This document shows, piece after piece, positions 27,106-37,353 of a stretch of DNA of 64,000 bases. This stretch comes from Methylopila sp. Yamaguchi. Lineage in GTDB: Bacteria > Pseudomonadota > Alphaproteobacteria > Rhizobiales > Methylopilaceae. The notes beneath the pieces were generated by a model, which saw only the letters and a list, made by a program, of their open reading frames with translations, was not told where the DNA came from and searched no databases. Numbering within the stretch: the stretch's first letter is position 1; every line of letters begins with the position of its first letter. The translations under genes and the position numbers were made by a program. Location of the stretch: contig NZ_BAUX01000006.1 of the NCBI RefSeq assembly GCF_002897035.1, positions 1-64,000 of the forward strand, read 5' to 3'.

Positions 27106-28632
27106 TCAGGCGGGGTCTTGTTCGAACAGCAGGTGGTGCATCATCACCCTGAGCCGGGGCGGGCTGACGGGCTTCACCATCAAGGGGAGACTCGCGGCGC
27201 GGACCCGCTCCACCACGCCGGGCTCGGCGTCGGCTGTGATGATGCAGGCGGGGATTTCCGCTTCCGACACGCCGCGGACGTGGGCGATCACGTCGAGGCC
27301 GGTGCTTTTGCGGATGCTGTAGTCGGCGATGATGAGCCGTGGCCGGAAGCCGCCGGCGACGATCGCCGCAGCCTCCTCGGCCCCCGCCGCGGAGCGCCGG
27401 TCGACGCCCCAGCGGTCGAGGAGCTGGCCCATCGCCTCCCGGAGCGCGTCGTCGTCTTCGACGAGCAGGATCGGCGCTCCGACGAACTCTCCGGCGACCG
27501 CCTCGTTCACCTCGGTCTCCACGACCTCGCTATGCCAGACGTTGCCGAGCGGCACGAACACAGAGAAGCGGGACCCGACCCCCGGCGCGGACTGCAGCTG
27601 GATACGGTGACCGAGCAGGTCCGACAGGCGCTTGACGATGTTGAGGCCCAGGCCGAGGCCTGTTTTCTCCAGCCGCCGGTCGTCCGCCGCGCGGAAGAAC
27701 TCGTCGAAGATCCTTTCCTGGTCCTCCGGCGCGACGCCGCGCCCGGTGTCCACCACGTCGATGCGCAGCCCGTCGCCCCGCCGGCGGCAGCCGACCAGCA
27801 CCCCGCCGACATCGGTGAAGCGAAGCGCGTTGGCGACGATGTTGCTGAGGATTCGTTCGAGCAGCGCGCGGTCGCTGGACACCGCGGCGCGGGCGCCCAC
27901 GATCCGCAGGCGCAAGCCCTTGTCCGCGGCCTGATGCCGGAACTGAATTTCAAGACGCTCGAACAGGGTCGAAAGCTGGAACGTCGCGATCCGCGGCTTG
28001 ATCCGGCCGGCGTCCAGCTGTCCGATCTGCAGCAGCGCGCCGAGCAGGTCCTCCATCACGGACACGGACACGTCCATGCCGTGCAGCAGGTCGCGCCGGC
28101 GGGCGTCGTCCGTCTCCCGCATGCAATTGAAGATCATGATCTTCAGCGCCGCGAGAGGTTGCCTCAGGTCGTGGTTGGCGGCCCGCAGAAAGCGCGACTT
28201 CGCCTCGTCGACGGCCTCGGCCTTCTCCTTCGCGGCGAGAAGCGTCGCCTCCCGGCGCTCCGCGGCCGTCACGTCTGAGAGCATGGTGGCCGCGCCGCCG
28301 CCGTCGATGGGGGCGACCGACATCCGGACGACCCGCCCGTCCGCCGACTTGTAGTCGGCTTCGCTTTCTTCGCCGAAGGCCGCCGCCTGTTCTGTGATCC
28401 AGATATCCGGCGGGACTGGCAGCCTCCACTCCCGGGAGGCCGCGACGGCTGTCAGGAAGCGGGCGTAAGGCAAGCCGACGGGCAGCGCGAAGTCGAAGCT
28501 TTGGCGAAACGCACGGTTCGCGAAGAGGAGGGCGCCCGCCTCGTCCCAGACCGCGGCGCCGTTCGGCAAAGCGTCGAAGCCGGCGAAAACGCGACCGGGG
28601 TCCGTCTCCGCCGCGCCGTCTCCGTCAGCCAC
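27106..28632 (-). CDS. Soluble PAS hybrid histidine kinase
   Basis: 508-residue kinase without membrane segments. Domains in order: PAS-like (about 15-122), HisKA with phospho-His154 in RFLRAANHDLRQPLAALK, HATPase (ILSNIVANALRFTDVGG ... VVDTGRGVAPEDQERIFDEF ... GLGLGLNIVKRL), and a C-terminal receiver with Asp437 in LIIADYSIRKSTG and Lys in PLMVKPVSPP. The NHDLRQPL box is typical of soluble hybrid kinases. Its start overlaps the response-regulator stop by 8 bp, so they form a coupled pair. The lack of a membrane anchor and the adjacent cytosolic binding protein suggest sensing of an intracellular ligand. Confidence 0.9.
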   Translation of the reverse strand: MADGDGAAETDPGRVFAGFDALPNGAAVWDEAGALLFANRAFRQSFDFALPVGLPYARFLTAVAASREWRLPVPPDIWITEQAAAFGEESEADYKSADGRVVRMSVAPIDGGGAATMLSDVTAAERREATLLAAKEKAEAVDEAKSRFLRAANHDLRQPLAALKIMIFNCMRETDDARRRDLLHGMDVSVSVMEDLLGALLQIGQLDAGRIKPRIATFQLSTLFERLEIQFRHQAADKGLRLRIVGARAAVSSDRALLERILSNIVANALRFTDVGGVLVGCRRRGDGLRIDVVDTGRGVAPEDQERIFDEFFRAADDRRLEKTGLGLGLNIVKRLSDLLGHRIQLQSAPGVGSRFSVFVPLGNVWHSEVVETEVNEAVAGEFVGAPILLVEDDDALREAMGQLLDRWGVDRRSAAGAEEAAAIVAGGFRPRLIIADYSIRKSTGLDVIAHVRGVSEAEIPACIITADAEPGVVERVRAASLPLMVKPVSPPRLRVMMHHLLFEQDPA

Positions 28633-29395
28633 GGCCGGGGTTGGCGCCGCCGAACAGGCTCATGGCGTAGTGCAGAGCCGCGGATCTGTCCGGGAGGTTC
28701 AGCTTCTTCATCGCGTTGCGAAGGTGGACGCGAACGGTCTGCTCCGCGACGCCGCAGGCTTCTGCGATCTTCCGCACGGAGGCCCCGCGTCCCAGCAGCT
28801 CCATCACCTCGCGTTCCCGTTCCGTCAGGGCAGGTCCGTCCGACGCCGGCTCGGGGGTCGCGGCGGCTGGCGCTCCGGGGGCCGACCGCTCGATGATGCG
28901 GCGCGGGAACGAGACCTCGCCGGCGAGGACGCGCTCCAGCGCGCGCTCCACCTCGGGCGCGCCGGCGGACTTCGGAATGTAGCCAATGACGCCGTGCTCG
29001 ACCGAACGCATGACGTGCTCGACATCCTCGTGCACGGAGACGACCACCAGCGGGACGGTCGGGAATTCTTTGCGCAGCCGGCGCAGCCCCGCGAAGGCCT
29101 CGAATCCCGGCATCACCAGATCGACGAGCATGAGGTCGACGTCGGGATGGCGCTCCAGCGTCTCCGCGGCCTCCGCGAAGCTCTCCGCTTCGTAGATCTC
29201 GATCGTCTGCTCCAGCCGCTGCATGACCTGCTTGAGCGACTGCCGGACCATCCAGTGATCGTCGGCGATGACCACTTTCAGCCGCCCGCCGGCGGGGACG
29301 GCGCGCGATGCGTCGGGACGTGGCGCGCGGTCGAAGTCGCCCGCGCCGCCGCGGCGCCTCGGCTTGGGGTCGACGCTCTCGAAGGAGTTCAGCAT
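28625..29395 (-). CDS. NarL/LuxR-family response regulator
   Basis: 256-residue regulator: receiver (KVVIADDHWMVRQSLKQ, phospho-Asp92 in LMLVDLVMPGFEA, GYIPKSAGAPEVE) and a C-terminal LuxR helix-turn-helix (LTEREREVMELLGRGASVRKIAEACGVAEQTVRVHLRNAM). The ATG at 29395 is preferred; a TTG at 29431 would add 12 residues, and neither has a strong ribosome-binding site. It is the first gene of the minus-strand regulatory operon and faces the divergent ABC/DMFase operon, so it is the likely activator of that operon. LuxR-type regulators are known at other DMF-degradation loci, in line with this. Confidence 0.9.
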   Translation of the reverse strand: MLNSFESVDPKPRRRGGAGDFDRAPRPDASRAVPAGGRLKVVIADDHWMVRQSLKQVMQRLEQTIEIYEAESFAEAAETLERHPDVDLMLVDLVMPGFEAFAGLRRLRKEFPTVPLVVVSVHEDVEHVMRSVEHGVIGYIPKSAGAPEVERALERVLAGEVSFPRRIIERSAPGAPAAATPEPASDGPALTEREREVMELLGRGASVRKIAEACGVAEQTVRVHLRNAMKKLNLPDRSAALHYAMSLFGGANPGRG

Positions 29396-29519
29396 GAGTC
29401 TCGATCTAAACGAATTGGCTAGCTTACTCAACAGCCACTTTCGGCGATGTCTGCCTCATACATGGGCAAGCCACAGCCCCGATACAAAGGCGGAGGAGCA
29501 GTCACCACCAGAAAATTCG

Positions 29520-29639: not shown

Positions 29640-30926
29640 ATGAAAGACATCACGCGGCGGACACTTGTGAAGGCGACGGCGGCGGGCGGCGCCGCGGCGG
29701 CGCTCTCGGCTCCCTTCATCTCGCGGGCCTGGGCGGCGGAGCCGATCCTGCTCGGCGTTCCGACGTCGCAGACCGCCGCGGCGGGCGTGGCGGACGACCT
29801 CGATCACCTCAACGGCACCACGCTGGCGATGGAGGAGATTAACGCCGCCGGAGGCATCCTGGGGCGGCCGCTCAAGCTCTATGTGACCGACGTCGACAAG
29901 CTCTCTCCCGAGAGCTGCCAGCAGGCGATCGCCGCCTGCGTCGACGCCAAGGTGCATGCGATCTCGAACGCCTTCGTGTTCGTGCCGATCCCCGCGATGG
30001 ACGCCTCCGCCAAGTACAAGTGCCCCTATCTCAACGGCAACACCCAGCGCGCCGCCACCGAGGCGTTCAAGAAGAACCCGGACAAGTACAGCCATGTCTT
30101 CCAGACCGACCCGTCGGAAGTGCACTACGGCTACACATACCCGATCTGGCTGAAGGCGATGGAGAGCTCCGGCGCCTGGAAGCCGAAGAACCGCAAGGTG
30201 CACATCGTCCAGGAGCAGGTCGCCTACTGTCAGACGATCTCGCGGGCGGCCCAGGAGGCGTTGAAGAAGAGCGACTTCGAGGTCGCAAAGATCACCGACA
30301 TCCAGTTCCCGGTGCAGGATTGGGGTCCAGTGATCCAGGAGCTCAAGGAGGTCGACGCCGGCGCGATCATGATCGACCACTGGGTCGCCGCCGAATACGC
30401 CGCCTTCTGCAAGCAGTTCCAGGCCGACCCGGTGCCCAACTCGCTAGTCTACCTGCAGTACGGCCCGTCACAGCCGGAATTCCTGACGCTCGCCGGCGAG
30501 GCGGCAAACGGCTTCTGCTGGTCGACGGTGCTCGGCGTCTACGCCGACGAGAAAGGCAACGCCTTCCGCGCCAAGTACAAGAAGCGGTTCCCCGGCATCA
30601 TGGGCCTCGTCTACACCGGCAACGGCTACGACATCGCCTACTACCTCAAGGCCGCCTGGGAGGCGACCGGCGACCCGTCCAACTTCAAGGCCGTGTGCGA
30701 CTGGATCCGCACCCACCCCTACCGCGGGGTCTGCGGCTACATGGACATGAACAACAAGTACCAGGAGTCCGGGCACTTCCCGGACAACGGTTTCGCTGTC
30801 ACGGCGACCGAACTCGAGAAGGGAATGAGCCAGCTCTACGTCCAGGTCCAGGACGTCGAACATAAGATCATCTACCCCTACGAGATCAAGGAATCGGCGC
30901 TTAAGCCCGCGCCGTGGTGGAGCTGA
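29640..30926 (+). CDS. Amide/urea-type ABC transporter substrate-binding protein
   Basis: 428-residue exported binding protein with a Tat-like signal (DITRRTLVKATAAGGAAAA ... SRAWAA, twin Arg at 6-7), then LLGVPTSQTAAAGVADDLDH and a Peripla_BP_5 fold related to urea and short-chain amide binding proteins (UrtA/FmdD). It heads an operon of transporter genes ending in DMFase, so the likely ligand is DMF or a related small amide. It is the exported paralog of the cytosolic protein at 25861-27078. It overlaps the next gene by one base (TGATG). Confidence 0.92.
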   Translation: MKDITRRTLVKATAAGGAAAALSAPFISRAWAAEPILLGVPTSQTAAAGVADDLDHLNGTTLAMEEINAAGGILGRPLKLYVTDVDKLSPESCQQAIAACVDAKVHAISNAFVFVPIPAMDASAKYKCPYLNGNTQRAATEAFKKNPDKYSHVFQTDPSEVHYGYTYPIWLKAMESSGAWKPKNRKVHIVQEQVAYCQTISRAAQEALKKSDFEVAKITDIQFPVQDWGPVIQELKEVDAGAIMIDHWVAAEYAAFCKQFQADPVPNSLVYLQYGPSQPEFLTLAGEAANGFCWSTVLGVYADEKGNAFRAKYKKRFPGIMGLVYTGNGYDIAYYLKAAWEATGDPSNFKAVCDWIRTHPYRGVCGYMDMNNKYQESGHFPDNGFAVTATELEKGMSQLYVQVQDVEHKIIYPYEIKESALKPAPWWS

Positions 30927-31684
30927 TGGCGGCGCCTGCGGCGCGCGTTTCGGACGCGCCGCTCTTCGCCTGCGAGGACATCACGCTCGATCTCGGCGGC
31001 CGCTCGATCCTGCATGGGATCAGCTTGGACGTCCGACCGGGCGAAGTGCTCGGCGTCATCGGACCGAACGGCGCCGGCAAGACCAGCCTGTTCGAGGTTC
31101 TTTCCGGCCGCATGCGGCCGAAGAGCGGGCGGGTGACCTTCAAGGGCGAGGACATCACCAAGCTGCCGCTGCACGCCCGCGCGCGCCTCGGCGTGGGGCG
31201 CACCTACCAGACCCCCGTTGTGCCGGATGAACTGACGGTCGGCCAGACCTTTAAGGCCGCCCGTCAGGCCTACCGCCCTTACCTGACGCGCCTGGACGCC
31301 GAGTACGGCGCCGAGCTCGTGCATCTGCACGTCGATCACGACGAGGCGACTGCGCAGCTTGAAACCATGAACCGGCGGAAGCTGCTGCTGGCGTGCCTCC
31401 TCATGCGGCGACCGGCGGTCCTGCTGATGGACGAGCCCGCCGCCGGCCTCATCAACTCCGAGGTCGACGAGATCGACCACCTCATCCGCATGCTCTCGAA
31501 GGAGATGAACGTGGCGATCGTCATCGTCGAGCATCGGATCGAGCTGCTGGAGACCATCGCCGACCGCGTGATGGTCATGGACGCGGGCGCCGTCATCGCA
31601 TCGGGGTCGCTCGCGGACATCCTGACCGACCCCAAGGTCCACGCGGCCTACTTCGAAGGTCCCGGCGAAGGGGACGACGCGTGA
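30926..31684 (+). CDS. ABC transporter ATP-binding protein (LivG/UrtD-like)
   Basis: 252-residue ATPase: Walker A VIGPNGAGKTSLFEVL, Walker B PAVLLMDEPAAGL and switch His in VIVEHRIELLE. The usual LSGG signature is altered: after the Q-loop region the segment reads ETMNRRKLLLACLLMRRPAV, with NRRK in place of the LSGGQ core. This could reflect a degenerate signature, with ATP hydrolysis supported by the partner ATPase. The ATG overlaps the stop of the binding-protein gene; an alternative GTG lies at 30914. It works with the second ATPase and the two permeases. Confidence 0.9.
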   Translation: MAAPAARVSDAPLFACEDITLDLGGRSILHGISLDVRPGEVLGVIGPNGAGKTSLFEVLSGRMRPKSGRVTFKGEDITKLPLHARARLGVGRTYQTPVVPDELTVGQTFKAARQAYRPYLTRLDAEYGAELVHLHVDHDEATAQLETMNRRKLLLACLLMRRPAVLLMDEPAAGLINSEVDEIDHLIRMLSKEMNVAIVIVEHRIELLETIADRVMVMDAGAVIASGSLADILTDPKVHAAYFEGPGEGDDA

Positions 31685-32439
31685 GCGCGCCCGCGGCCGT
31701 CTCCCCGGCGGCGGCGCCGGAGCGGCGCGAGATCCTGAGGGTCAAGGGCCTGTCCGCCGGCTACGGCCCGATGCGCGTCATCCACGACCTCGATCTGTCG
31801 GTTTATTCGGGCGAGCGGGTCGGCATCGTCGGCCTGAACGGCCATGGCAAGTCGACACTGTTCTACGCCATCGCCGGGCTCACGGGCTGGCAGCGCGGCT
31901 CGATCCTGCTGAACGGCGTCGAGGTCGGCCGCACGCGCAGCCAGGGGCCGGGCCGCTACACCCACCTCGTGGTCCGCCAGGGCCTCGCGCTCATCCCGCA
32001 GGGCGACGAGATCTTCCACGGGCTCACCGTCGAGGAGCACCTCGACTCCGGCGCCTTCACGCCCCGAGCTTGGAAGGAGCGGAGAGAGCGCAAGGAGAAG
32101 ATCCTCAAGATCTTTCCGCCGCTGGTGAAGCTGATGAAGACCCCGGTCGGCCGGCTGTCCGGGGGAGAACGGCGCATGGTCTCGATCGGTCGCGGGCTGA
32201 TGGCGGAGGCGTCGCTGTTCCTGGTCGACGAACCCTCGCTCGGCCTCGCTCCCAAGATCGGCAAGGGCGTGATGGAGGCGCTGTTCGATGTGGAGCTCGG
32301 CCAGTCCGCGATGATCATCGCCGAGCAGAACGTGGCGCTGCTCGAGGGCCGCGTCGACCGCGTCATCGGCATGCATGTCGGCAAGCTCAAGGGCGAGGCC
32401 TCCGCGTCGCTGTCCTTCCAGACCCGCCGGGAGCTCTGA
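31681..32439 (+). CDS. ABC transporter ATP-binding protein (LivF/UrtE-like)
   Basis: 252-residue ATPase: KGLSAGYGPMRVIHDLDL, Walker A VGLNGHGKSTLFYAI, Q-loop LIPQGDEIFHGLTV, signature GRLSGGERRMVSIGRGLM, Walker B LFLVDEPSLGLAP and switch region AMIIAEQNVALLE. The GTG at 31681 overlaps the previous stop (GTGA). It is the canonical partner to the LivG-like ATPase whose signature is degenerate. Confidence 0.93.
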   Translation: MSAPAAVSPAAAPERREILRVKGLSAGYGPMRVIHDLDLSVYSGERVGIVGLNGHGKSTLFYAIAGLTGWQRGSILLNGVEVGRTRSQGPGRYTHLVVRQGLALIPQGDEIFHGLTVEEHLDSGAFTPRAWKERRERKEKILKIFPPLVKLMKTPVGRLSGGERRMVSIGRGLMAEASLFLVDEPSLGLAPKIGKGVMEALFDVELGQSAMIIAEQNVALLEGRVDRVIGMHVGKLKGEASASLSFQTRREL

Positions 32440-32443
32440 TCCC

Positions 32444-33325
32444 ATGGACGTCGGTTTCATCCTGAGCAACGCGATCGTGCTCGCCTGCATCTACGGCACG
32501 CTCGCGATCGGGCTCTCCATCACCTGGTCCAGCGTCGGCCTGATCAATCTCGGCTACGGCTTCATCTTCGCGCTGTCAGGCTACGGCGCCTGGCTCGCCT
32601 CGCAATACATCTCGACCAACGGCGTCGTGGTCCTCACCGCGGGCGTCCTCACCGGCGCGCTCGGCGGGCTGCTGGTCTGCGCGCTCGCCTTCATCCCGAT
32701 CCACGACAAGCCGAACTTCACCGTCCGCGGCCTGATCGCGACCCTCGCCATCAGCCTCATCGGCACACAGGCGCTGCTCTACTTCTTCGGGCCTCGCTCC
32801 AAGAACCTCCCGGACATCTTCGGCTTCTGGAAGGTGAACGTCGCCGGGATCGTGCTGACCTCCGACAAGATCGGCAACGTCGTGGTCTCCATCGTCGTGG
32901 TGACCGCGGTGCTGCTCTGGATGCGGTCGAGCCGGCGCGGGCTCGAGATCCGGGCGATGATGATGAACCCGCACGCCGCCTCGATCGTCGGCATCGGGGT
33001 GCGCAAGACCGGCTTCTACGTGATGGCGATCACCGGCGGGCTCGCCGGCCTCGCGGCGGTGCTGCTGTCCCAGACCTACTACATCTCGCCCTTCGGCGGC
33101 CTCGCGCCGATGATCAAGGGCGTCAGCATCGCGCTCTGCGGCGGGCTCGGCAGCGTCCGGGGCGCGGTGATCGCGGCGATCATCCTCGGTCTGAACGAGG
33201 CGCTCACCGCCCGCCTGCTTGGCGGTCAGTACGTCCTCATCACCCAGTTCCTCCTGATCATCCTGATCCTGCTCGTCCGTCCCCGCGGCATTGCGGGCAT
33301 CCTCGACCGCGCTCGGGAAGCTTGA
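32444..33325 (+). CDS. ABC transporter permease (LivH/UrtB-like)
   Basis: 293-residue inner-membrane permease starting MDVGFILSNAIVLACIYGTL, with about eight hydrophobic helices and the branched-chain/urea permease motif AASIVGIGVRKTGFYVMAITGGLAGLAAVL plus CGGLGSVRGAVIAAIILGL. It lies 4 bp after the ATPase stop and 2 bp before the second permease. It forms the membrane channel with LivM. Confidence 0.93.
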   Translation: MDVGFILSNAIVLACIYGTLAIGLSITWSSVGLINLGYGFIFALSGYGAWLASQYISTNGVVVLTAGVLTGALGGLLVCALAFIPIHDKPNFTVRGLIATLAISLIGTQALLYFFGPRSKNLPDIFGFWKVNVAGIVLTSDKIGNVVVSIVVVTAVLLWMRSSRRGLEIRAMMMNPHAASIVGIGVRKTGFYVMAITGGLAGLAAVLLSQTYYISPFGGLAPMIKGVSIALCGGLGSVRGAVIAAIILGLNEALTARLLGGQYVLITQFLLIILILLVRPRGIAGILDRAREA

Positions 33326-33327
33326 GC

Positions 33328-34968
33328 ATGACCGGCCATATCTGGCGCAATCCGCTTTACTTCTGGGGCGTCGAAGGCGCGGAGAAGGAGGTCCCCTCCA
33401 TCCCGCACAAGAGCCCGCAGGACGTCTGGGACGAGACCACTGCGTCCAAGGCGAAGATGCTGCCGGTCGGACGGCTGCGGTACTACTACAAGTGGCCCGG
33501 CCACGGCGGCCTGACCTGGCCGCGCTTTCGCTACTGGGGGACGCGCCGGCGGGCGCTGAACATCCGCAGCGTCTACAATCCGAAGACGATGCGTCTCGAG
33601 AAGACCATCGTCGACAAGCGGCCGATCTGGTGGGTGCTGGGGCTGCTCGCCTTCATGCTGGCGCCGCTGGCGATGCCCGCATCGTTCCAGAACACGCTGC
33701 TGACCGCCGGCGCGACCTTCTCGATCTACGCCGCGATCAACCTCTGCTGGATGCTGATCATCGGCACCGCCGGCATCTACTCGCTGGCGAGCTACGCCGT
33801 GGTGGGCGCCGCCGCCTTCGGGACGTCGTGGCTCTCGATCAACCTCGGGCTGCCGTGGTGGACGCTGCCGCTGGTCGGCGCCGGCGTCGGCCTGGTGTTC
33901 GGGATGATCATCGCCGTGCCGGCGATCCGGCTCGACGGGTTCTACTACGCGCTGCTCACCATTGGCCTGAACGAGCTCTGCCGGGTCTACGCGCTGCAGT
34001 CCAAGCAGTTCGGCTCGTCGACCGGCGGCCTCTACGGCGCCGACACCTACATCCCGCAGGGGTGGGACCAGTACGACCAGTCGCTGCTCGCCTACTACGC
34101 CTGCTTCGGCGTGATGTTGGCGGGCCTTGCGCTCTACCGGTTCATCGACGGCCGCAGGCTCGGCCGCATCCTGAAGATGGCGCCCGAAAAGCGCGAGGCC
34201 TTCGCGGAGGCGACCGGCGTCGACTTCCGGCGCGCCCGCATCTGGGTGTTCGTGATCTCGTCGATCGGGCTCGGCTTCATCGGCGGCTTCTACGCCGCGC
34301 ATTACCGCGGCGTGTCGTTCTCGATCTTCAGCTTCGACACGGTGCTGCTCGGGCTCGCCATGCTCGTCATCGGCGGCATCGGCCGGGCTGAGGGCGCGGT
34401 CGTCGGCACCGCGATCGTGATCCTGCTCGACAAGGTGCTGCTCTCCACCGGTCCGCTCCGGCTGATCCTCATCGGCCTGATCATGCTCGGGGTGGTGCTG
34501 TTCCTGAAAGGCGGGCTGTTCGGCATCAAGGCCCAGTTCCGGGCCTGGCGCGACAAGAAGAAGAGCGAACGCCGGTCCATGCGGGCCGAGAAAGGAGGCG
34601 AGATGTTGCCTGAGGAAGCCACCGAGACGAAGGATAAGGATCTCCTTTACTGGCGCCGCTACGACAAGATGCAGCGCGAGTTCCTGAAGACGGTGATCTC
34701 GCCCGAGCTGATCGAGGAGCACCGCAAGAAGCCGCTCGGCCAGCACAGCGAGCCGCTGGAGCGCCTCCTGCTCTACTTCCGCCGCGCGCCCCAGAACGAC
34801 AAGTACGCGATCGTGGCCGTCGAGCCGTTCAAGGCCTACCGCATCGTCGCCCTGTCAGGGCAGCGCGGCGTCGCCCCGCGCATCGTCGAGGACAAGATCT
34901 ACACGTCGACGGACGAGGCCTATCACGGCGTCTTCCTCCGCCGCGTCCAGGATCTCCTCGAGTCCTGA
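33328..34968 (+). CDS. LivM-type permease fused in frame to DMFase small subunit
   Basis: 546 codons, far longer than normal LivM (about 300-420). Residues 1-95 are a hydrophilic extension (GHIWRNPLYFWGVEGAEKEV ...). Residues ~96-405 form the LivM permease (PIWWVLGLLAFMLAPLAM, MIIAVPAIRLDGFYYALLTI, LGLAMLVIGGIGRAEGAVVG). Residues ~406-425 are a Lys/Arg-rich linker. From residue 426 the sequence is like the small subunit of N,N-dimethylformamidase (IEEHRKKPLG ... LLLYFRRAP ... EAYHGVFLRRVQDLL). No stop separates the two parts. Translation may give a fusion, or the small subunit may also be made from the internal ATG at 34603. Confidence 0.88.
   Translation: MTGHIWRNPLYFWGVEGAEKEVPSIPHKSPQDVWDETTASKAKMLPVGRLRYYYKWPGHGGLTWPRFRYWGTRRRALNIRSVYNPKTMRLEKTIVDKRPIWWVLGLLAFMLAPLAMPASFQNTLLTAGATFSIYAAINLCWMLIIGTAGIYSLASYAVVGAAAFGTSWLSINLGLPWWTLPLVGAGVGLVFGMIIAVPAIRLDGFYYALLTIGLNELCRVYALQSKQFGSSTGGLYGADTYIPQGWDQYDQSLLAYYACFGVMLAGLALYRFIDGRRLGRILKMAPEKREAFAEATGVDFRRARIWVFVISSIGLGFIGGFYAAHYRGVSFSIFSFDTVLLGLAMLVIGGIGRAEGAVVGTAIVILLDKVLLSTGPLRLILIGLIMLGVVLFLKGGLFGIKAQFRAWRDKKKSERRSMRAEKGGEMLPEEATETKDKDLLYWRRYDKMQREFLKTVISPELIEEHRKKPLGQHSEPLERLLLYFRRAPQNDKYAIVAVEPFKAYRIVALSGQRGVAPRIVEDKIYTSTDEAYHGVFLRRVQDLLES
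34603..34968 (+). CDS. dmfA1: N,N-dimethylformamidase small subunit, nested at the 3' end of the permease frame
   Basis: In the same frame as the permease, ATG 34603 is preceded by AAAGGAGG at 34591-34598 (4-nt gap), a near-ideal ribosome-binding site, and would yield a 121-residue protein. Compared from memory with the 132-residue Alcaligenes/Paracoccus DMFase small subunit, shared elements include IEEHxxxPxG, a YFRxxP segment, AYRI and the C-terminal EAxHxVFLRRxxD. The large subunit follows 63 bp downstream. The small subunit is required for assembly of active DMFase in characterised enzymes. Whether it is made free, fused or both is not known. Confidence 0.7.
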   Translation: MLPEEATETKDKDLLYWRRYDKMQREFLKTVISPELIEEHRKKPLGQHSEPLERLLLYFRRAPQNDKYAIVAVEPFKAYRIVALSGQRGVAPRIVEDKIYTSTDEAYHGVFLRRVQDLLES

Positions 34969-35031: not shown

Positions 35032-37353
35032 ATGGCCCAGGTGAAATTGTTCGGCTACGCCGACAAGATCTCGGTGAAGCCGGGCGACACCATCGACATT
35101 CACGTCTCGGCCGACGGCGTGGACACCGCCGACGCCAAGCTCGTGCGCCTGATCCACGGCGACGAGCATCCCGACGGCCCCGGCTTCATCGAGGAGGAAG
35201 TGGCTTGCGAAGCCGACGGCCCCTGGGCCGTGCGCAAGCAGTACACCCAGGTCGGCTCCTACCTGAAGGTCGACGACCCGACCAACGTGCTCGCGCTCGA
35301 CGGGCCGATCACGCTGTTCGCCTTCATCTACCCCGGCATCCCGGACGCAGGCCTGAGACAATGTCTGCTCGCCCGCTGGAACAACGACCGCAACTTCGGC
35401 TACTCGCTCGGCATCAACCAACGCGGCCACCTGGAGTTCTGGGTGGGGCAAGGGGGCGAGGTCGATTACATCCAGGCGGAGGCCCCGCTGCTGGTGAAGA
35501 TGTGGTACTTCGTCGCCGCTAGCTACGATCCCAAGACGGGCCGGACGGAGATCTATCAAGAAGGCGTCGCCAACCGGTACAACAGCCTGCTCGGCAAGGT
35601 CTGTCCGATCGAATACCGCAGCCATGTCACCGAGACCTTCCGGTTCCGGCCGAAGCACCTCGCCGAAACGCCGTTCCTGATCGCCGGCTCGCAGGATTTT
35701 CACGAGACCCGCGGCGCCTTCGTGTCCGAGACCTACTGCGGGAAGATCGACCGTCCCGGCGTCTACGGCCGCGCGCTGACCCGCGTCGAGCTGGACGAGA
35801 TCCGGGACGGCAAGCCGCCGAAGCCGGACGGCCTCGTCGCCTATTGGGACACGACGGCGGGCTACACCGACCGGGGAATTGGCGACGTCGTGATCGATGT
35901 CGGCCCCCACAGGCTGAACGCCCTCGGCTTCAACCGCCCTGTGCGCGCCCAGACCGGCTGGAACTGGAACGGCCGCAACGACTGCTTTCGTCTGGCGCCG
36001 GAGGAGTATGGCGGGGTCGAGTTCCACTACGACCAGGTGGTGGACTCGAACTGGGACAAGACGCGCACCGTCCGCCTGCCGGACGACCTGAAGAGCGGCT
36101 GTTACGCGATCCGCCTGAGGGCGGGTCCGGGCAAGGGGCTTTCGGAAGAGCACGTCGTGTTCTTCGTCCGGCCGAAGACGCCGAAGGGCAAGGTCGCGCT
36201 GCTGTTCCCGACCGCCACCTATCTCGCCTACGCCAACGAGCATCTGAGCTTCGACGCGCAGATCATCCAGCCGATGACGGGGCAGCCGCCGATCGTCACC
36301 GAAATCGACATCGAGATGTACAAGAACTGGGAGTTCGGCTTCTCGACCTACGACAGCTGGGCCGACGGCAACGGGGTTTGTTACACGTCATACCGCCGTC
36401 CGATCCTGAACATGCGGCCCAAGGCGCGGATGTCGAGCATGGGCGTCACCTGGGCGTTTCCAGCGGACCTCTCGATCCTCGCCTGGCTCGAGACCAAGCG
36501 CTACGACTACGACGTCGTAACCGACGAGGACCTGCACCGCGAGGGCCTTGCGGCGATCGAGCCCTACGCCTGCGTGCTGACGGGATCGCACCCGGAATAC
36601 ACCTCCGAGCCGATGCTGGACGCGATGGAGGACTACGTCGCCGGCGGCGGGCGCTTCATCTACATGGGCGGCAACGGCTTCTACTGGAACGTGGCGTTCC
36701 GGGAGGAGGAGCCGTGGGTGATGGAGGTGCGGAAGCTCGACTCCGGTATGAGGGCCTGGCAGGCGCGGCCGGGCGAGCACTATCTCGCCACCACCGGGCA
36801 GAAGAGCGGGCTCTGGAAGAACCTCGGCCGCCCGCCGCAGAAGACCTTCGGCGTCGGGTTCATCGGCGAGGGCTTCGAGACCAGCCGGCCGTTCCGCCGG
36901 ATGCCCGACAGCTACCACCGCACGGTCGACTGGATGTTCGACGGCATCGAGGGCGAGATCATCGGCGACTTCGGCCTCGCCTACGGCGGCGCGGCGGGCC
37001 TCGAACTCGACCGCTACGACCTCACGCTCGGCACGCCTCCGCATGCCAAGATCATCGCGTCCTCGGGCGGCCACAGCGACAACTACATGCTGTCGATCGA
37101 GGAGATCCTCTACCCCTATCCTGGACTCGCCGGCTCGCAGGACTACCGGCTTCGCGCCGACCTCGTGTACTTCCCGACGCCCAACAACGGCGCCGTCTTC
37201 AGCACCGGCTCGATCGCCTTCTGCCAGGCGCTGCCGATCAACGGCTTCGACAACAACATCTCGAAGCTGCTGAGCAATCTGGTCGACGCCTTCACCAAGC
37301 CGGGACTGCTGCCGGGATCGTTCTGGGTGAACGAGGAGAAGCAGTGGAAGTGA
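35032..37353 (+). CDS. dmfA2: N,N-dimethylformamidase large subunit
   Basis: 773-residue protein matching the DMFase large subunit family (about 760 residues), which hydrolyses DMF and similar small amides to formate and dimethylamine using mononuclear iron. The N-terminal half has a LamG-like beta-sandwich (around 60-260, LDGPITLFAFIYPGIPDAGL). The C-terminal half has a glutamine-amidotransferase-like fold with LLFPTATYLAYANEHLSFDA, EFGFSTYDSWADGNG and LTGSHPEYTSEPMLDAMEDY. As I recall, characterised enzymes bind Fe through two Tyr and one Glu; Tyr397 or Tyr400, Tyr440 and Glu522 sit at matching places. No signal peptide, so cytoplasmic. It is the last gene of the operon, with no clear terminator in the next 140 bases. 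Confidence 0.92.
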   Translation: MAQVKLFGYADKISVKPGDTIDIHVSADGVDTADAKLVRLIHGDEHPDGPGFIEEEVACEADGPWAVRKQYTQVGSYLKVDDPTNVLALDGPITLFAFIYPGIPDAGLRQCLLARWNNDRNFGYSLGINQRGHLEFWVGQGGEVDYIQAEAPLLVKMWYFVAASYDPKTGRTEIYQEGVANRYNSLLGKVCPIEYRSHVTETFRFRPKHLAETPFLIAGSQDFHETRGAFVSETYCGKIDRPGVYGRALTRVELDEIRDGKPPKPDGLVAYWDTTAGYTDRGIGDVVIDVGPHRLNALGFNRPVRAQTGWNWNGRNDCFRLAPEEYGGVEFHYDQVVDSNWDKTRTVRLPDDLKSGCYAIRLRAGPGKGLSEEHVVFFVRPKTPKGKVALLFPTATYLAYANEHLSFDAQIIQPMTGQPPIVTEIDIEMYKNWEFGFSTYDSWADGNGVCYTSYRRPILNMRPKARMSSMGVTWAFPADLSILAWLETKRYDYDVVTDEDLHREGLAAIEPYACVLTGSHPEYTSEPMLDAMEDYVAGGGRFIYMGGNGFYWNVAFREEEPWVMEVRKLDSGMRAWQARPGEHYLATTGQKSGLWKNLGRPPQKTFGVGFIGEGFETSRPFRRMPDSYHRTVDWMFDGIEGEIIGDFGLAYGGAAGLELDRYDLTLGTPPHAKIIASSGGHSDNYMLSIEEILYPYPGLAGSQDYRLRADLVYFPTPNNGAVFSTGSIAFCQALPINGFDNNISKLLSNLVDAFTKPGLLPGSFWVNEEKQWK

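Follow-up and report, generated by a model that had tools for sequence, protein, structure and literature searches.

A DMFase-type small subunit encoded in frame with a LivM-type importer permease, with a candidate internal start for the free subunit

The fused gene and its operon

The window, a stretch of 64,000 nucleotides from Methylopila sp. Yamaguchi, contains an operon with the genes of a putative ABC importer and of a putative amide hydrolase of the DMFase type. A single reading frame was found to cover both the LivM-type permease of the importer and the small subunit of the enzyme. The features of the locus are as follows.

27106..28632, minus strand: hybrid histidine kinase, possible regulator
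28625..29431, minus strand: LuxR-type response regulator, divergent, possible regulator (homologues adjoin some related operons)
29640..30926, plus strand: periplasmic substrate-binding protein of the importer (Pfam Peripla_BP_6, E 6e-28; same place in related operons)
30914..31684, plus strand: ABC ATPase 1, LivG-like, exact start unsettled (ORF; homologues in related operons)
31681..32439, plus strand: ABC ATPase 2, LivF-like (ORF; homologues in related operons)
32444..33325, plus strand: LivH-like permease (ORF; homologues in related operons)
33328..34968, plus strand: fused gene, LivM-type permease and DMFase-type small subunit (546 aa, ATG at 33328)
33328..33612, plus strand: N-terminal extension ahead of the first hydrophobic helix (alignment, hydropathy)
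33712..34494, plus strand: BPD_transp_2 permease domain, residues 129-389 (Pfam, E 2e-22)
34519..34626, plus strand: basic linker past the last hydrophobic helix, beginning GIKAQFRAWRDKKKSERRSMRAEKGGE (alignment, hydropathy)
34591..34598, plus strand: internal Shine-Dalgarno (SD) sequence AAAGGAGG, which doubles as Lys-Gly-Gly codons
34603..34968, plus strand: predicted nested frame for the free small subunit (121 aa, start MLPEEATE)
35032..37353, plus strand: DMFase-type large (catalytic) subunit, 773 aa (6lvb_A, E 4e-179)

The ORF listing of the window gave 33328..34968 as one frame of 546 codons without a stop, in agreement with the uninterrupted permease/small-subunit frame claimed in an earlier, sequence-only reading. 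The in-frame ATG at 34603 and the AAAGGAGG at 34591-34598, both reported in that reading, were also confirmed, with a spacing of 4 nt.

The fused protein was characterized, at its N-terminus, by an Arg/Lys-rich extension (17 K/R versus 7 D/E in residues 1-93) with a W-x-N-P motif and no Pfam match. This extension of about 95 residues had no BLAST match in the shorter fused proteins of L028, L070, L074, L075, L079, L087, and L088. The permease was assigned to the LivM type on the basis of its BPD_transp_2 domain, found in an operon with a substrate-binding protein, two ATPases, and LivH. Three NCBIfam LivM/UrtC models matched it, all far under their cut-offs (best LivM 46.8 bits versus 366; UrtC 39.1 versus 296.2 bits); judged by sequence, it is a divergent member of the fold family, neither LivM nor UrtC proper. 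The linker was strongly conserved, with many invariant columns in the alignment of fused proteins and, because it is positively charged, the positive-inside rule places both the linker and the small subunit probably in the cytosol. The last 121 residues had no match in Pfam or NCBIfam and matched the solved DMFase small subunit 6lvb_B (E 7e-13, residues 9-118; profile E 4e-14), which establishes homology to DMFase (DmfA1/DmfA2), with about 32% identity to the small subunit of the soluble enzyme. The join was located just ahead of the stretch aligning with the solved subunit, the alignment starting at residue 9.

In the accessible part of the structural report, the iron ligands of 6lvb are Y399, Y440, and E521, with H519 and N547 essential nearby (PMC7686228). 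In a manual count on the alignment, the residues at all these positions were identical in the large subunit encoded next door, which thus carries a 2-Tyr-1-Glu iron site, and 6lvb F693 corresponded to Tyr. The earlier label "DMFase" was right at the family level, with a putative substrate assignment.

Related operons exhibited the gene order substrate-binding protein, ATPase, ATPase, LivH, fused LivM-small subunit, and large subunit, with an extra small-subunit gene in some of them. Free small-subunit homologues were also present elsewhere in the genome of the window (49% and 40%), so that the need for a nested free subunit is not absolute. In the same genome, we observed a second Liv/urea-type operon (L091, contig C20:31000-50000, minus strand), with an unfused permease of 367 aa, a free small subunit (146 aa) and a large subunit, and a carbon-nitrogen hydrolase gene further along. 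It was preceded by another free small subunit of 121 aa, starting with MLPKP.

Occurrence of the fused frame

The sequence-only reading had proposed that homologous loci be compared for a stop between the two genes. An unselected scan (one genome per species, small-subunit peptides as the only queries) returned 25 loci. The join was present in 24 of them, the frame extending at least 380 codons upstream of the small-subunit start. The only exception was L018, a SAR11 single-cell assembly in which a T run just ahead of the junction contains a frameshift, either an amplification error or real. The titles of the scan loci included Methylopila, Hansschlegelia, Chelatococcus, Bradyrhizobium, Methyloversatilis, SAR11 single cells, and one Desulfobacula MAG. 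The fused gene was also present in plasmid records from Agrobacterium, Rhizobium, Aminobacter, and Ensifer, and in the annotated plasmid records inspected the fused frame was a single CDS under the name "branched-chain amino acid ABC transporter permease"; the frame itself is already on record, named just a permease.

The same 842-aa stop-to-stop frame was found in Methylopila capsulata (L004) and in a different genome of the same genus (G142); a further entry, G235, had the coordinates of L004, was evidently the same record, and was not counted as an independent case. Because this frame recurs in independent assemblies and the join is kept in diverged relatives, a sequencing or assembly error hiding a stop or a frameshift is excluded in practice, and we give it a negligible probability.

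Among the 397 genomes of the window's order, 52 had some small-subunit homologue. Thirteen of the 15 matches with E < 1e-35 lay in frames of at least 514 aa, the other two being a frame ended by the contig end (256) and a free second copy (194); weaker matches mostly lay in short frames. Further draws of genomes, which overlap one another, gave under stricter cut-offs 7/385 (class), 3/398 (phylum), and 8/399 (order of G1063), in addition to draws from families. A single-genome oddity was ruled out by the scan and these draws. Overall, the gene was fused in 65 of the 66 loci fetched that have a permease matching this LivM, L018 being again the exception; however, the later loci, including most of those behind this count, were mostly fetched for their long frames, and 24/25 is therefore the fair figure. 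One genome with fragments on two contigs (G224) was left out of the fetched loci.

The free small-subunit genes of L029, L031, L032, and L033 had no adjoining permease matching this one. Two candidate fusions were rejected: an archaeal one in Halalkalicoccus, suggested by the name "inner-membrane translocator", was really a free small-subunit gene (about 180 aa) with no permease, and the 483-aa open frame of G682 had no permease match (locus L080). No relative was found in viral contigs. On a plasmid of Aminobacter sp. MDW-2 (L053), the fused gene, with an intact internal start, was followed by two large-subunit genes. Another membrane-linked setting was observed on plasmid p1 of Aminobacter niigataensis DMFA1 (L104), where a flotillin-domain gene lies directly ahead of the genes for free small and large subunits of the DMFase type, and ABC transporter genes are close by.

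Conservation of the internal initiation site

The junction was compared between operons with and without a second small-subunit gene, absence meaning that no such gene lay on the same strand in the 3 kb downstream. After removal of L089, L101, and L102, identical to others, the 65 fused rows left 62 distinct loci (L018 excluded because of its frameshift): 49 without a second gene, 11 with one, and 2 (L023 and L079, both with a start codon) scored as unknown because of too little downstream sequence. The absence of a second gene was scored on short flanks in two loci, L070 (2718 bases downstream) and L098 (2481); L099, a near-identical twin of L098, has the full flank.

A conserved [KR]GGE motif precedes the internal start. 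At all 49 loci without a second gene, a start codon (ATG, GTG or TTG) was found at the first (37 ATG, 2 GTG) or second (3 ATG, 5 GTG, 2 TTG) codon after GGE; at 7 of the 49 loci the start codon was GTG or TTG, coding Val or Leu. Among the 11 second-gene loci, five had no start codon, four had ATG, one GTG, and one TTG (start loss versus second gene, Fisher P 8e-5, relatedness ignored). GGAGG or GGGGG was present at the junction in 37/49 loci without a second gene versus 0/11 with one, and the first Gly was encoded by GGC in 10/11 second-gene loci versus 2/49 of the others. The strong SD was thus absent from all 11 second-gene operons, and the fused domain was full length in every one of them, including the five without an internal start. 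Two arrangements were observed: fused-small2-large in six operons (L015, which ends inside the large gene, L020, L027, L034, L071, which ends soon after it, and L072) and fused-large-small2-large2 in five (L013, L014, L073, L085, and L086). A separate gene would supply the short form in 11 of the 60 loci with scorable downstream sequence.

In a tree built on the fused proteins with the junction columns removed, the second-gene loci formed two clades, with two changes of second-gene state and four of start loss. Because there were only two independent origins, a phylogenetic paired test (2 pairs) was unable to reach significance; the weak-SD trait agreed with expectation in nearly all random pairings, under a rule written after the junctions had been seen. 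At the level of sequence, the internal site was shown to be weakened or lost where a free copy lies downstream. The small-subunit tree suggests that the free copies may have been duplicated from the fused domain; AU tests of small-subunit topologies gave p 0.4 for a joint clade of free copies and 0.08 for one fused clade. Only one of the 11 free copies (L086) has a candidate start like the nested MLP, and the other starts differ.

Codon choice at the junction also differed between the two groups. The SD Lys was encoded by AAA in 37 of the 41 Lys-bearing loci without a second gene (versus 7.7 expected by local codon usage), the remaining 8 of the 49 being SAR11 loci with Arg in its place, versus 1 of the 11 second-gene loci (2.2 expected). 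We then examined 271 conserved columns in the 34 loci left from the 49 once the 8 scored SAR11 loci and another 7 near-copies had been removed. The four most usage-defying columns were the SD Lys, the SD first Gly, and two of the first five nested codons, with z values of 10.8, 8.6, 5.8, and 5.4, the 5.8 column including L070 and L074, where the TTG serves as the proposed start. The same columns had z values of -0.9, -2.1, -0.6, and -1.1 in the 11 second-gene loci. The SD pair still ranked first and second in thinned sets of 15 loci (<75% identity) and 7 loci (<65%). Elsewhere in the frame, a Lys column 70 codons past the SD Lys also over-used AAA, in both groups and unrelated to the second gene (z 4.85 in the 34-locus test; 3.0 and 4.6 in the structure/thinning test).

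The mRNA from -24 to +30 was predicted to be less structured than synonymous redraws are on average in all 15 thinned loci (mean z +1.8; 9/15 individually at 5% or less; two with z of only 0.3), versus more structured than redraws in 9 of the 11 second-gene loci (mean z -1.1). Predicted anti-SD pairing energy alone failed to separate the groups, whereas the codon-usage and structure tests did so. In 12 of the 49 loci (AAAGGTGGA/AAAGGCGGA/AAAGGTGGG), pairing was no stronger than with random synonymous codons (P 0.79-0.97), and the SAR11 loci showed no pairing excess (P 0.62-0.72), AGA and GGA being common codons there. Given the codon tests, the arrangement is more than chance. Taken as comparative sequence evidence, these data show a conserved fused frame in which the SD and the in-frame start codon are under nucleotide-level selection, as expected of a dual-product gene.

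Two probable products, their possible role, and related systems

The sequence-only reading had offered a choice between a membrane-anchored enzyme and a nested gene giving both fused and free subunit. The second option, which includes the first, is supported, since the fused coding sequence and the internal initiation site are both kept, and since second-gene operons lost the strong site and kept the fusion; the answer is probably both. Because these operons lose the strong SD yet keep the fused domain, the cell seems to need a tethered as well as a free small subunit.

Translation from 33328 would yield an importer subunit of the LivM type that ends, on the cytosolic side, in the small subunit of a DMFase-type amide hydrolase, and initiation at the SD-preceded ATG 34603 would yield the small subunit alone. 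Both forms would bind the large catalytic subunit. An importer of this type holds one LivM. DMFase is an alpha2beta2 enzyme in which, according to the accessible part of the source, the large subunit alone is inactive, the N-terminal helix of the small subunit is wedged between two large subunits, and a cavity between large and small subunits leads to the active site (PMC7686228). Given one LivM per importer and an alpha2beta2 enzyme, the preferred assembly would have one tethered and one free small subunit per enzyme, together holding two large subunits at the cytosolic mouth of the importer, where the imported amide, probably N-methylated, would be hydrolysed as it enters. We infer the synthesis of both proteins, the mixed stoichiometry, the docking, the channelling and the substrate, the tethering and channelling by analogy with the soluble DMFase. 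We consider it likely that one gene gives two products and that mixed tethered/free enzyme docks at the importer mouth to cut the amide on entry. Points that speak against this are the six second-gene loci in which a start codon persists, the differing starts of most free copies, the 12/49 loci with weak predicted pairing, the lack of a pairing excess in SAR11, and the free small-subunit homologues elsewhere in the window's genome. The most detailed version, an importer with a built-in enzyme in which the tethered and nested free subunits clamp the iron amide hydrolase dimer over the cytosolic exit, the amide being cut as it emerges, and in which the nested gene was twice replaced by a fused-only gene plus a free paralogue, is put forward tentatively.

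Two products could also form two pools, a membrane-bound fused enzyme and an ordinary soluble alpha2beta2 enzyme, with neither mixed complexes nor channelling. The codon and start evidence is the same under this reading, and the five operons with small2 and large2 could encode a separate soluble enzyme; however, the six second-gene operons with two small-subunit genes and one large fit a shared complex better, and we regard separate pools as somewhat unlikely. It is less probable still that only the fusion is made. SD-like stretches within genes can slow ribosomes, and the one seen here might be a programmed pause for membrane insertion, or a relic of separate genes, with no free subunit formed. 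The conservation of the fused protein, linker included, and the weak predicted pairing in 12/49 loci are consistent with this. A pause, however, needs neither an unstructured start region nor a start codon, yet the latter was kept in 49/49 loci despite a one-codon shift and residue change, and the SD should not vanish in two clades with a second free gene.

The opposite case, that only the free subunit matters and the permease stop was lost without harm, or the fusion is cleaved after synthesis, appears very unlikely. The solved or named DMFase small subunits considered here are indeed free (6lvb; dmfA1 of P. aminophilus), but the sole unjoined locus among the 66 with this permease is the frameshifted single-cell assembly, the linker is highly conserved, and five loci without the internal start retain a full-length fused domain.

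Regarding the substrate of the putative two-product system, methylotrophy is known in genera carrying the operon, such as Methylopila and Methyloversatilis; Bradyrhizobium and the SAR11 bacteria, which are abundant in the ocean, also have the operon. In 7 of 10 SAR11 loci (L017, L018, L021, L022, L024, L025, and L026), GATase, GXGXG, and glutamate-synthase-like genes were present downstream of the large subunit. This trio was not found in the available sequence of L016 and L019, and L023 was too short to tell; in L009, the last of the three genes lay upstream. We take the trio to be, probably, N-methylglutamate synthase (mgsABC) and, because of this resemblance, the substrate of the operon is likely a methylamine-releasing amide. 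A published SAR11 gene cluster (PMC10308929), in which one gene is called "inner membrane translocator" and another "N,N-dimethylformamidase", may represent the same permease/enzyme pair. The SAR11 gene context suggests a pathway that turns dissolved N-methylated amides into methylamine.

That nutrient importers of bacteria are physically coupled to the first enzyme of catabolism has often been suspected and is hard to show. Here, an enzyme subunit would have become covalently attached to an importer in evolution, with a nested start retained for the unattached form, so that the coupling question can be tested by removing one start codon.

Compared with the Paracoccus DMFase (DmfA1/DmfA2, 6lvb), described in the accessible part of PMC7686228, the small and large subunits are homologous and the iron-site residues of the large subunit are shared. 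The small subunit of that enzyme is a free gene product, whereas the one described here forms the C-terminal domain of an ABC permease; no transporter was annotated in the 9.7 kb inspected of the P. aminophilus plasmid. With LivHMGF-type importers of branched-chain amino acids or urea, the permease fold and the gene set are shared, but the present permease has an extra N-terminal extension and a C-terminal enzyme subunit, and scores far under the LivM/UrtC cut-offs. In full-text searches on importer-enzyme fusions, DMFase, and the DMFase genes, subscription papers being mostly beyond reach, we found no account of the join.

As far as the accessible text describes it, the Cas11b small subunit is likewise encoded in frame inside a larger gene, Cas8b, from an internal Met start (PMC11899642), with unrelated proteins and without a membrane transporter. 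The closest case in logic is that of YscQ/SctQ and YscQ-C in the C-ring of type III secretion, where an in-frame internal start likewise yields a C-terminal fragment that, in the part of the source available, is required for assembly and forms part of the same complex as the full-length protein (PMC4295842). The proteins are unrelated, and in the present case an importer would take the place of the long form and an enzyme subunit that of the short one. C-terminal partners made from internal in-frame starts are thus already known, and the importer-enzyme version is the new part.
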